From a virus, in IMG/VR virus record IMGVR_UViG_3300025818_000070, positions 1 through 36,398 of that record: a DNA stretch of 36,398 nucleotides. One strand, given 5' to 3'. Below, piece after piece: positions 81 to 15,281 of this stretch. Every line of letters starts with the position of its first letter. Position 1 is the first letter of the stretch. The notes below the pieces were generated by a model. It did no database searches. It was not told the origin of the DNA and worked only from the letters and a program-made list of their open reading frames with translations. Made by a program: the position numbers and the translations under genes.

Positions 81-147
81 GTCGGTTGGTGCGAAGCGCC
101 AAAGGCGCGTAGCCACTACCTCCCCTCTCCGGCGGGGGAAGGGACGG
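81..147. repeat. Two-hairpin boundary element (copy 1)
   Basis: A GC-rich element between two minus-strand genes. The first hairpin is GCGCC-AAA-GGCGC (96-108). It is followed by a purine/pyrimidine mirror stretch (CCCCTCTCC..GGGGGAAGGG) that forms a second hairpin. On the minus strand it reads TGGCT..CTTCGCACCAACCGACC, closely matching 9612-9645. It also supplies the C-terminal tail VPSPAGEGR of the gene at 116-463. Confidence 0.6.
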
Positions 148-463
148 CATCAGACATGTCGATCTCGACGGCTGGGCCTTCCAGCGCGGCGCGTATGGCG
201 CACGAAATCGCATATTCGATCTGGAAATCAGGCACCTGGAAGACGCCGTTATCAAAGGCTCCAGAATCTGAGGCCGCGCGGATCATGTCGTCTGTAGGCG
301 GCCACATGGCCTCAATAGCCGCTCGGGCGCCGTGTCGCCACACGTCGCGAGTTTCTTCCGCTTCGTCCATCCATTTGACGAGCCTTGGGCGATCCGCTGC
401 GCGCACGCTGGCGGCATTCCAAAGCGCTTCGGCCACGCGCTCCACCATCTCACTCTCAGCCAT
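116..463 (-). CDS. Conserved phage hypothetical protein, 115 aa
   Basis: The sequence begins MAESEMVERVAEALWNA and contains WKM-type aromatic and alanine-rich helices. This layout is common in small proteins of alphaproteobacterial phages that open with a (M)VERVAxALW motif. The start is fixed by AAGGAGG about nine bases upstream, and it overlaps the stop of the HNH gene by eight bases, so translation is probably coupled. The last nine residues (VPSPAGEGR) are encoded by the boundary hairpin element and are unlikely to be part of the fold. Function unknown. Confidence 0.65.
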   Translation of the reverse strand: MAESEMVERVAEALWNAASVRAADRPRLVKWMDEAEETRDVWRHGARAAIEAMWPPTDDMIRAASDSGAFDNGVFQVPDFQIEYAISCAIRAALEGPAVEIDMSDAVPSPAGEGR

Positions 464-4096: not shown

Positions 4097-4860
4097 GCTG
4101 CAATCGCCGGAAGGGCGTCGCGCTTGGCCTCGACGGCGGCGTAGACGGCCTCGTATGCATCATCCGGAAGCTTTTCCTTCAACTCGTCCCGGTTCTCGGT
4201 CCACCACGTCTTGAGCTGGAGACGGTCGTTGCACAGGCCAATGGCCATCCGCGCGCCGCTCTCCAGGGTGGCAACGGCCTTGCGGTCCTTCTGTACTTGA
4301 TAGGTGGAGCGGGTTTCCGTGGTCAGACCATCCGCGCGGGCCTCGTCGGCAAACTCCTCCGGCGAGCGCATGCTGCCAGCCGGGCGCTTAAAGCTCTCCG
4401 GGTCGTGATCGTAGGCGCCCTGCATTTCTTCGGCCGGCGTGGTTCCAAGGCTCTTGTCGATCAGGATCACCACATGGGCAAAAGCCGACCGGCAGGCGCG
4501 GGAGATGGCGCGGGTCTGCGCCATGGCGCGGCGGGCGAACATCGGGCGCTTGGCCCACATCTGTTCGTCGTCGCCAAGGAACCCTTCGGCCGTGGCGATG
4601 ACGCCACCGTCCGACATGCGCCGGATTTCCCCAATGGCCCGGATACCGCCCTCGACCAACTCCACATCGCGGGAGGAGGCAACGCAGCCATGGGCAACGG
4701 CGATGGCCTGCCAGCCTTCCACAGTCACGTAGCGCTTGCCTTGGATCTTGGTTGCGGTCGCCTTCACGATGTCGCCGCAGAGCGTGGCGGCGTCGGTTGA
4801 CGTGCGGTAGGTTTCGACGCCCGAGCGGGTATCAATGGGAACGAGGTCGGTGACGCTCAT
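4093..4860 (-). CDS. Probable phage single-strand annealing protein (Rad52/ERF-like group)
   Basis: The product is 255 residues, starting MSVTDLVPIDTRSGVETYRT. A compact domain contains IQGKRYVTVEGWQAIA (about 44-60) and, near residue 125, the motif MFARRAMAQTRAISRACR, which ends in a SxAFAHV segment. This GW...AxTRAxSxAxR pattern is typical of phage proteins described as Rad52- or ERF-like annealing proteins. That assignment comes from remembered family resemblance, not a profile search. The acidic C-terminus could bind partner proteins. The start at 4860 overlaps the upstream gene as ATGA. The setting beside HNH nucleases in the leftward early operon fits recombination. Confidence 0.55.
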   Translation of the reverse strand: MSVTDLVPIDTRSGVETYRTSTDAATLCGDIVKATATKIQGKRYVTVEGWQAIAVAHGCVASSRDVELVEGGIRAIGEIRRMSDGGVIATAEGFLGDDEQMWAKRPMFARRAMAQTRAISRACRSAFAHVVILIDKSLGTTPAEEMQGAYDHDPESFKRPAGSMRSPEEFADEARADGLTTETRSTYQVQKDRKAVATLESGARMAIGLCNDRLQLKTWWTENRDELKEKLPDDAYEAVYAAVEAKRDALPAIAA

Positions 4861-5045
4861 GCTGCCTCCTGCAGGTTGACGGGGCGGTCCTTCGTGACGG
4901 CCGGGCCGTCCACATCGGCGGCAACGCGCTTCAGCCACGCGGGCCACTCGCGATCACGCAGGATGTATTCCAGAGTGGCGTAGGCCTCGGCCTCGTTGTG
5001 CTGGGCCTGCCGGGCTGCGGCTGCGATCTTTTCTGCAAGAGTCAT
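4857..5045 (-). CDS. Small hypothetical protein, 62 aa
   Basis: Reads MTLAEKIAAAARQAQHNEAE and ends PAVTKDRPVNLQEAA. GGAGAG sits about eight bases before the ATG at 5045, and the stop overlaps the next start as ATGA. Helical, unknown function; possibly a partner of the annealing protein it is coupled to. Confidence 0.65.
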   Translation of the reverse strand: MTLAEKIAAAARQAQHNEAEAYATLEYILRDREWPAWLKRVAADVDGPAVTKDRPVNLQEAA

Positions 5046-5149: not shown

Positions 5150-5298
5150 TTGACTGGCTCGCTTTCGGCCTCGGATTCGTCCACGCACTCGGCACAAAGA
5201 AGCTGATGCGCTGGGTAATACTTGGACGCGGGCGCTTCCTCGCAGCCGTCGTCGCTGTCGCTCAGGCGCTGGCACTCAGCGCAGAAGAACATGCCCAT
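5146..5298 (-). CDS. Small zinc-ribbon protein, paralogue 1 (50 aa)
   Basis: The product starts MGMFFCAECQRLSDSDDGC and includes EEAPASKYYPAHQLLCAEC. CxxC at residues 6-9 and a second CxxC near residue 38, plus Cys19, suggest a one-zinc ribbon. TGATG overlaps the upstream gene's stop, and the stop overlaps the next ATG. A paralogue on the other strand (15102-15281) shares a block of about 40 identical bases, so the gene was duplicated or acquired twice. Function unknown. Confidence 0.75.
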   Translation of the reverse strand: MGMFFCAECQRLSDSDDGCEEAPASKYYPAHQLLCAECVDESEAESEPVK

Positions 5299-5471
5299 CA
5301 CGCCACCTTCGCCAAGAAGGCATCGAGGTCGGAGAGGGCTTTATGTGCGATGTCCATGCGGCGCTGAAACTCAACGGTCAGCATCTGATCGCCTCGGGCC
5401 AGGAATGGCGCGGCGCACTGCTCCAGCGTCTCTCTCATCCCTTGAAGGATCTCAATTTCGCGGTCGCTCAC
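5298..5471 (-). CDS. Small helical hypothetical protein, 57 aa
   Basis: A GTG start at 5471 overlaps the upstream stop (GTGA). The sequence begins MSDREIEILQGMRETLEQC and ends SDLDAFLAKVA; it is mostly amphipathic helix. The frame is open upstream, but that part is arginine-rich shadow. The TGATG overlap with the zinc-ribbon gene supports coupling. Function unknown. Confidence 0.6.
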   Translation of the reverse strand: MSDREIEILQGMRETLEQCAAPFLARGDQMLTVEFQRRMDIAHKALSDLDAFLAKVA

Positions 5472-14289: not shown

Positions 14290-14570
14290 CGGACCCGGCG
14301 CACTTCACAGATCCCAAATGGGCAGCCCAAGAGCGAGCGCGACAGGCCCGCGAGGCCCTTCGCGCGAAAGGCCTGCCAAAGGCTTTTTGGGCCGCTCGCG
14401 GCGCTACGCTCCTCCGAGACGGGCAAGAAGTGGCTTACATCATGCGCCTGCGCTGGGCATTGACGCTGCCTGAAGCCAAAGCGCTTTGCTCGCATATCGC
14501 CGACGCGCTCAATGCGATACCCACCGATGGCGCCGCGCCCGACCCGAGCAAAGGTCAGGCACCTCAATGA
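14286..14570 (+). CDS. Hypothetical phage protein, 94 aa
   Basis: MTDPAHFTDPKWAAQERARQ, then a helical basic body, ending IPTDGAAPDPSKGQAPQ. The tail is the same PTDG cassette as at 12097-12140. It is the last gene before the minus-strand cassette at 14603-14988; an 11-codon frame follows (14567-14602). Confidence 0.6.
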   Translation: MTDPAHFTDPKWAAQERARQAREALRAKGLPKAFWAARGATLLRDGQEVAYIMRLRWALTLPEAKALCSHIADALNAIPTDGAAPDPSKGQAPQ

Positions 14571-14602
14571 TCACCCAATGGCGACCGGAGACGCTGCAAT
14601 GA

Positions 14603-14818
14603 CTAGCGGGGCAGCTTTCGTCGGATGGCAGCTAGTGCCACGCCGCGCGTTGTCAGCAGCGTCCGGAGTTCGACCCACACGCCGGGCGGTATCTCGTTTT
14701 GACCGGCGTCCCAGCGGCGCACCGTGCGGTCTGAGACGCGCAGGTCGCGCGCTAGGTCGGACTGCCAGCGCGGCCCGTACAGCGCCTCACCAGCCTGCCG
14801 AAGCAGGGCGGGGCTCAT
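14603..14818 (-). CDS. HTH regulator, Aca-like by position
   Basis: The product is 71 residues. WQSDLARDLRVSDRTVRRWD (about 18-37) is a clear helix-turn-helix. It is the second gene of a two-gene operon opposing all its neighbours, and its ATG overlaps the stop of the first gene. A perfect palindrome fills the operon promoter, so autorepression is likely. The same layout is seen for anti-CRISPR-associated (Aca) regulators, but this HTH type also occurs widely in phages without any such link. Confidence 0.75.
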   Translation of the reverse strand: MSPALLRQAGEALYGPRWQSDLARDLRVSDRTVRRWDAGQNEIPPGVWVELRTLLTTRGVALAAIRRKLPR

Positions 14819-14988
14819 CGCCCCACCGCCATCTTTTCGGCCGTGATGAAAATCGGCTTGTGTTCCTGATGCTTTGCGTAGTGAGCGGCCTGCACCTTTT
14901 CGGCCCGCGCCTTAACCACTTCGTAAGAGCCCGAGAAAAGAACCTTGGTCGGGCGGCTGTTGGTCATTTCGTAAGCGATGTAGGTCAT
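14815..14988 (-). CDS. Small protein, 57 aa, candidate anti-CRISPR or other inhibitor
   Basis: MTYIAYEMTNSRPTKVLFSG then SYEVVKARAEKVQAAHYAKH and QEHKPIFITAEKMAVGR. A beta-alpha-beta layout is plausible. GGGAGAG precedes the ATG at 14988. No family recognised. It is first in an antisense operon with its own promoter and a following HTH gene, the context that has led to most anti-CRISPR discoveries. The function is inference from context only. Confidence 0.7.
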   Translation of the reverse strand: MTYIAYEMTNSRPTKVLFSGSYEVVKARAEKVQAAHYAKHQEHKPIFITAEKMAVGR

Positions 14989-15037
14989 TTGGGTCTCTCC
15001 CGTTCTGGCTGGCCTGAGTGCCTCGCCGCTGAAAAGG

Positions 15038-15066
15038 AATATGTCCTAAAAAGCGGACATGGTCAA
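15038..15066 (-). promoter_or_regulatory. Promoter with built-in operator for the antisense cassette
   Basis: Minus-strand TTGACC (15066-15061), 17-base spacer, CATATT (15043-15038). The palindrome ATGTCC (15041-15046) / GGACAT (15055-15060), with an 8-bp centre, fills the spacer and touches the -10. Confidence 0.65.
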
Positions 15067-15101
15067 GCGCCAAAAGAAGAATTTTTTTGCGGAGAAATGC
15101 G

Positions 15102-15281
15102 ATGAGCATGTTCGTTTGTGCCGAGTGTGGGGCTTTTGCCGACAGCGACGACGGCTGCGAGGAAGCGCCCGCGTCCAAGTACTACCCAGCGCACCAGCTT
15201 CTTTGCGTTGATTGCGCGGAAGAAGACTCCCCCACAGATGGCACCGAACGATCGACCACCAAAGGGGAGGGCCCCCAATGA
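15102..15281 (+). CDS. Small zinc-ribbon protein, paralogue 2 (59 aa)
   Basis: MSMFVCAECGAFADSDDGCE, then EAPASKYYPAHQLLCVDC. The CxxC pairs and the middle block are shared with the minus-strand gene at 5146-5298. The C-terminus is replaced by the SPTDGTERSTTKGEGPQ tail. GGAG lies seven bases before the ATG. It is divergent from the antisense cassette and coupled to the next gene. Confidence 0.75.
   Translation: MSMFVCAECGAFADSDDGCEEAPASKYYPAHQLLCVDCAEEDSPTDGTERSTTKGEGPQ

Follow-up and report, generated by a model that had tools for sequence, protein, structure and literature searches.

A candidate self-regulated accessory operon with an Aca2-like regulator, a promoter palindrome and a two-hairpin mRNA leader in a likely temperate phage

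A two-gene antisense cassette of a virus genome is a member of a large family of modules, apparently unreported so far, that share a regulator, a DNA operator and an mRNA leader, reused before dozens of unrelated small phage genes. The cassette lies in the window, i.e. the whole stretch of 36,398 nucleotides analysed here (positions 1 to 36,398 of IMG/VR record IMGVR_UViG_3300025818_000070); since this encodes an integrase, a cI-like HTH regulator, terminase subunits and structural genes, the virus is likely a temperate phage. Across the sequences compared, the operator is conserved, the leader covaries, one regulator is combined with many cargo genes, the fold predicted for the regulator is Aca-like and the cargo of one relative is AcrIE3-like. 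With moderate confidence, the cassette may be regarded as a self-regulated accessory operon of the acr-aca kind, whose HTH protein would repress at the operator and probably also at the leader RNA. What is new here is the reduced, Aca2-like regulator, a leader outside Rfam and the broad set of interchangeable accessory genes; in the open-licence literature no description was found of this HTH family or of its leader.

The cassette, its promoter and the operator

The first gene of the cassette encodes a protein of 57 residues and the second an HTH protein of 71 residues (Table 1). As the initial annotation had it, the two reading frames overlap in ATGA and lie opposite to the genes around them, all of which are on the plus strand. 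The promoter of their own that it had assigned to the pair, TTGACC-17-CATATT (15066-15038, minus strand), is borne out, with 9/12 matches vs 0.2 in shuffles, as the sole sigma-70-like site in the interval 14450-15200. The palindrome ATGTCC-N8-GGACAT is likewise exact; it is the sole zero-mismatch copy within the window, and it overlaps both the spacer and the -10 box, the inverted repeat thus lying inside the core promoter. A terminator-like call at 15060-15041 was set aside, being the same sequence as the operator.

Table 1 Features of the cassette and of its control region (positions in the window)
Feature	Position	Strand	Remark
-35 box TTGACC	15061..15066	-	TTGAC[AG] at the same place in many relatives
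DNA operator (candidate), perfect palindrome ATGTCC-N8-GGACAT	15041..15060	-	core shared by relatives
-10 box CATATT, overlapping the palindrome end	15038..15043	-	sigma-70-like site scan
mRNA leader stem-loop 1	15007..15027	-	models R1 and R2, built without the window sequence; covariation in relatives
mRNA leader stem-loop 2, GGG-AGAGA-CCC	14991..15001	-	Shine-Dalgarno-like GGAGAG inside
57-residue cargo protein, no known family	14815..14988	-	predicted beta-beta-alpha-beta
71-residue HTH regulator, Aca2-like	14603..14818	-	relative of phrog_12690 / phrog_3626

Relatives of the HTH protein were collected from IMG/VR and GTDB genomes. They occur in Rhodospirillales, Reyranella, Methylosinus, Phenylobacterium, Rhodoblastus, Stappia, Shinella, Paracidovorax and Burkholderiales MAGs, and the motif YGPRWQSDLARDL.VSDRTVRRW is almost invariant among them. 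The palindrome upstream of the HTH gene is more frequent than chance: GTCC-N8-GGAC is found within 1 kb upstream in 48 of the 76 HTH-relative loci, a set that includes a few near-duplicate contigs, the background being 0.042 per kb (19 copies in the remaining 453 kb of these loci). In the relatives, TTGAC[AG] often lies 5' of the operator, and at most loci a -10 box (TANNNT) is found inside the palindrome.

A gene for a small cysteine-rich protein (MSMFVCAECGAFADSDDGCEEAPASKYYPAHQLLC) is present in two copies in the window, at 15101-15224 (plus strand) and 5176-5299 (minus strand), 83-91% identical in DNA; one of them begins right beside the cassette promoter.

The two-hairpin leader

Directly 3' of the operator lies an element overlooked by the initial annotation, namely an mRNA leader of two hairpins (14986-15028, minus strand). 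In the family, the outer stem of stem-loop 1 counts 3-4 pairs and is separated by a bulge from the inner stem, which has 4 pairs and closes a loop of 4-6 bases; the start codon comes after stem-loop 2, inside which lies the Shine-Dalgarno sequence (AGGAGG family-wide). Judging from their covariation, RNA stem-loops are conserved at the ribosome-binding site across the family. The outer stem of stem-loop 1 occurs as GCGC/GCGC, CGGC/GCCG, GGAC/GTCC or CAGC/GCTG, its inner stem passes from GGGC/GCCC to GGGG/CCCC, and hairpin 2 exchanges TGGC/GCCA, GGGC/GCCC and GGGT/ACCC. A first model-fitted alignment has 10 of its 12 pairs changed on both sides (0/500 shuffles), with a covariation score of 0.411 vs 0.105 in shuffles (0/500) and at most 0.055 in slid controls, and a second one has compensatory changes in 8 of 12 pairs (0/500 shuffles). 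Alignments of this type are biased towards their own structure; therefore, most weight is given to the slid controls and to the alignment made with MAFFT only, in which compensatory changes are seen in 6 of 12 pairs and the covariation score is attained in 0/500 shuffles.

Upstream sequence of 400 bp or more is available for 69 loci, 52 of which have the leader at E <= 0.05; among the 17 others is L039, which duplicates the cassette of the window, so that some of them are false negatives. On six whole bacterial genomes, model R2 gave 7 leader matches, all 7 at HTH loci. Of 289 genomes from the class to which the Methylosinus genome belongs, no more than 6 encode an HTH relative at E <= 1e-4; in this set there was a single strong leader match, which also lies at an HTH locus, and there were three further ones at E 0.003-0.009 per genome, which is about chance level. 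Along the same line, two loci retrieved by the operator-leader DNA pattern alone (L106 and L115) both encode the HTH protein on the same strand, a blind success of the pattern; its matches in L108, L118, L119 and L120 are without an HTH relative and are probably due to chance. Rfam 15 gave no family at E <= 5 for the leaders of the window, L056 and L057, and Rfam gave nothing at the leaders of the four loci scanned.

The leader of the window itself is best called a degenerate member of the family, supported mainly by context. In placement, orientation, loop sequence (ACTCAG) and start codon it agrees with the family; its stems are shorter, stem-loop 1 reading GGC, bulge, A-A mismatch, GGC, loop, GCC, GCC; folded in isolation, the leader favours a structure without hairpin 2. 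Among all positions of the 36 kb, it ranks first with model R1 (filters off, E 0.045) and second with R2 (E 0.18). The second-best R1 match, at 4857-4895 on the minus strand (E 0.053), lies at an ATG start (MSVTDLV) and its stem-loop 1 is poor; it is likely a chance match driven by a Shine-Dalgarno hairpin. Another hairpin resembling stem-loop 1 (14807-14827, minus strand, GGT-GGGGC-GATGA-GCCCC-GCC), the loop of which contains the start codon of the HTH gene, was rejected as not conserved across loci.

An Aca2-like regulator and its mode of control

By profile comparison and modelled structure, the HTH domain of the 71-residue protein, which groups near phrog_12690 and phrog_3626, is of the Aca2 type; to this extent the anti-CRISPR/Aca layout proposed in the initial annotation stands. 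In sequence, the four best matches of the HTH profile among PDB sequences are all Aca2 chains (E about 0.009), and hhalign with the Aca2 of Pectobacterium phage ZF40 gives P 2.9e-5 and 28% identity over 53 columns. In structure (AlphaFold model, mean pLDDT 95.7), Foldseek puts Aca2 (7vjq) first (E 0.03), Aca10 second and Aca7 lower down, and HigA2 is also among the matches. The VIA-align Z-scores are 8.6 for Aca10 and AcrIF25, 8.3 for Aca2, 7.2 for Aca7 and 7.1 for Aca1, which are middling values of a common fold, for which scores of less than about 8 may be generic. Aca10, Aca7 and Aca1 are likewise small single-domain HTH proteins; the sequence match to Aca10 is weak (phmmer E 0.13), and Aca7 and Aca1 were not found by sequence.

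The acrIF8-aca2 operon of ZF40 is laid out as in the window: the cargo is followed by an HTH autoregulator, whose HTH domain is distantly related to that of the 71-residue protein, and the promoter palindrome (TGTTCGC-N4-GCGAACA) is directly followed by a hairpin, i.e. a second inverted repeat (CGGTTCGAG-N4-CTCGAATCG), and then by GAGG. Three differences concern the operator, the sequence of which is unrelated, the bacterial groups, the relatives of the window protein being found in Alphaproteobacteria and Burkholderiales, and the size of the regulator. In Aca2 a C-terminal dimerization domain comes after the HTH domain (PMC8434428); it is absent here, for the protein stops at residue 71, which is where the aligned part of Aca2 ends (71/116). 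The score stays under the gathering cut-off of PF08965, the Aca2 family (14.8 vs 23.8 bits). Moreover, model R2 does not match the acrIF8-aca2 leader on the ZF40 genome; the two leaders are therefore alike in layout, not in sequence. In the Mannheimia phage vB_MhS_535AP2 (2177-2695), the annotation has a protein of 172 residues whose C-terminal part is an HTH relative, which could reflect a fusion or a misplaced start.

The HTH gene product would thus be an Aca2-like autoregulator, controlling accessory genes most likely through DNA and probably through RNA as well. From the arrangement described above I infer operator binding, repression and RNA binding by the HTH protein, and an activity of the 57-residue protein, in the following manner. 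The sigma-70 promoter would transcribe the variable cargo gene, here that of the 57-residue protein, and then the regulator; as it accumulates, the HTH protein would bind the TGTCC-N8-GGACA operator overlapping the promoter and stop transcription. The mRNA would begin with the two hairpins, right before the start codon and with the Shine-Dalgarno sequence in the second, and on the most economical reading the same HTH protein would also bind this leader and block translation, as Aca2 reportedly does. Cargo would then be made in a burst upon infection and scarcely thereafter; it is interchangeable and most likely acts early, against the host or its defences, possibly as an anti-CRISPR. A precedent for recognition of both nucleic acids is given by the title of a report on Aca2, which names it a DNA- and RNA-binding HTH protein (Nature 631:670-677, cited in PMC12456014).

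It is doubtful, albeit conceivable, that the HTH protein represses transcription only, at the palindrome, as the known Aca families do at acr-aca promoters (PMC9410906), the leader being a separate cis element, e.g. a structured ribosome-binding site by which translation is limited or coupled, or an element recognised by a host factor. Since the Shine-Dalgarno sequence lies within it, hairpin 2 could act without any protein, and what bears on RNA binding here is the co-occurrence of HTH gene and leader. Against a separate element, however, the leader is nearly confined to HTH loci in the wholly searched genomes, and it is repeated before several genes within one operon (L071, L073, L101 and L065), the operator accompanying only some of the copies; the first three of these are large operons with 3-5 leader copies, several of them before different small genes. 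The near confinement to HTH loci and the repetition within an operon together point to an operon-encoded factor.

Interchangeable cargo

The leader precedes 67 ORFs, which fall into 53 clusters (blastp). Nearly all cargo proteins are without a known family, Pfam, NCBIfam and PHROGs being mostly silent, and PADLOC gave no match on 58 of them. A leader precedes a hexapeptide acyltransferase-like gene in L065 (2998-3444) and, in a weak form (E 0.04), a DnaJ-domain gene in L060 (3429-3914); therefore, the cargo does not consist of tiny proteins only.

The cargo of the window is, as initially described, a protein of no known family: it has no match in Pfam, NCBIfam, PADLOC or phage records, the best E in PHROGs is 0.17, and its sequence relatives are identical copies in two contigs. 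Comparison with the other 66 leader-led genes gave nothing convincing (best phmmer E 0.044). Its structure, now predicted from the single sequence, is a beta-beta-alpha-beta fold (pLDDT 80), with no significant fold match; AcrIIC1 appears among the top Foldseek matches at E 2.9-8.7 and a probability < 0.1, and was discarded as noise. An early role against the host or its defences is probable for the 57-residue protein.

A case in point for anti-defence cargo is L055, where the protein encoded behind the leader resembles, by distant homology and at one locus, the type I-E anti-CRISPR AcrIE3. The match is at E 1.4e-4 with phrog_8786 (about 0.008 allowing for the 58 proteins scanned) and at E 0.0012 with the solved AcrIE3; the identity with AcrIE3 of Pseudomonas phage DMS3 is 35% over 51 ungapped residues, from residue 1, and the alignment score is 80 vs 25.5 +/- 4.9 in shuffled sequences (maximum 49 in 2000 shuffles). 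Phage records hold no relative of this protein and IMG/VR gives only itself. Its gene sits in the operator-leader-HTH arrangement of the family; in DMS3, acrIE3 is likewise followed by an overlapping HTH gene, which differs in being annotated as a winged HTH. The expectation that HTH homologues occur beside known anti-CRISPR genes is thus realised in this one relative, not in the window, and in one of the 53 cargo clusters.

Within the preferred reading of a self-regulated accessory operon, the narrower claim of the initial annotation, i.e. that the 57-residue protein is itself an anti-CRISPR, is unlikely. The Aca-like regulator and the operon layout speak for it, as does the AcrIE3-like cargo in the same position in L055. 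Yet the protein is unlike AcrIE3, has no relative beyond the two contigs with an identical copy and shows neither homology to a known Acr (Pfam, NCBIfam, PHROGs) nor a recognisable fold, a single cargo cluster resembles a known anti-CRISPR, and Aca genes occur also without known acrs (PMC9410906).

A type II toxin-antitoxin pair, with the first gene as toxin and the HTH protein as antitoxin and autorepressor, would share with HigBA-type operons the gene order, the HTH autorepressor, the palindrome and a HigA2-like fold, and the ATGA overlap is compatible with it too; this is nevertheless very improbable and was rejected because the cargo turns over while the HTH persists. An antitoxin must fit its toxin, whereas here unrelated first genes precede regulators that are 80-90% identical (only 2 of 26 such locus pairs share cargo), several genes per operon are led by the RNA leader, a further point of difference from the HigBA type, the leader of L089 immediately precedes the HTH gene with no intervening cargo, and Pfam and NCBIfam give no toxin family among the cargo.

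Returning to a self-regulated operon, a broader proposal, tentative and somewhat short of even, is that the modules represent a second compact HTH family, devoid of the Aca2 dimerization domain, in which both DNA and RNA are recognised and translation is repressed gene by gene, through the leaders, for a large and rapidly exchanged set of anti-defence genes, the phages being those of Alphaproteobacteria and Burkholderiales. To my knowledge, Aca2 is the one family in which a single HTH domain exerts control at both DNA and RNA, and few anti-defence genes are known from these bacterial groups. If the proposal is true, the existence of a second, smaller family, with another operator and another, strongly covarying leader, would point to this mode of control being common, and would narrow the minimum required for it to one 71-residue domain; the operator and leader would be a ready bait, already marking > 50 unrelated candidate gene families. 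As a search tool, the operator-leader pair is independent of any knowledge of the cargo, and it marks interchangeable small phage genes of no known function, one of them AcrIE3-like.

Two further loci illustrate the arrangement of these modules. L050 carries back-to-back divergent operator-leader units, at 112-163 (minus strand) and 282-326 (plus strand). In the Acidovorax phage Aval (OP131589), the interval 2077-2752 comprises the operator, the leader (2095-2139), which like those of L056 and L057 is stronger than the leader of the window, a cargo of 119 residues and an HTH gene missing from the annotation; gp45 is annotated to start at 1986, which is upstream of the operator, and this start is probably wrong.
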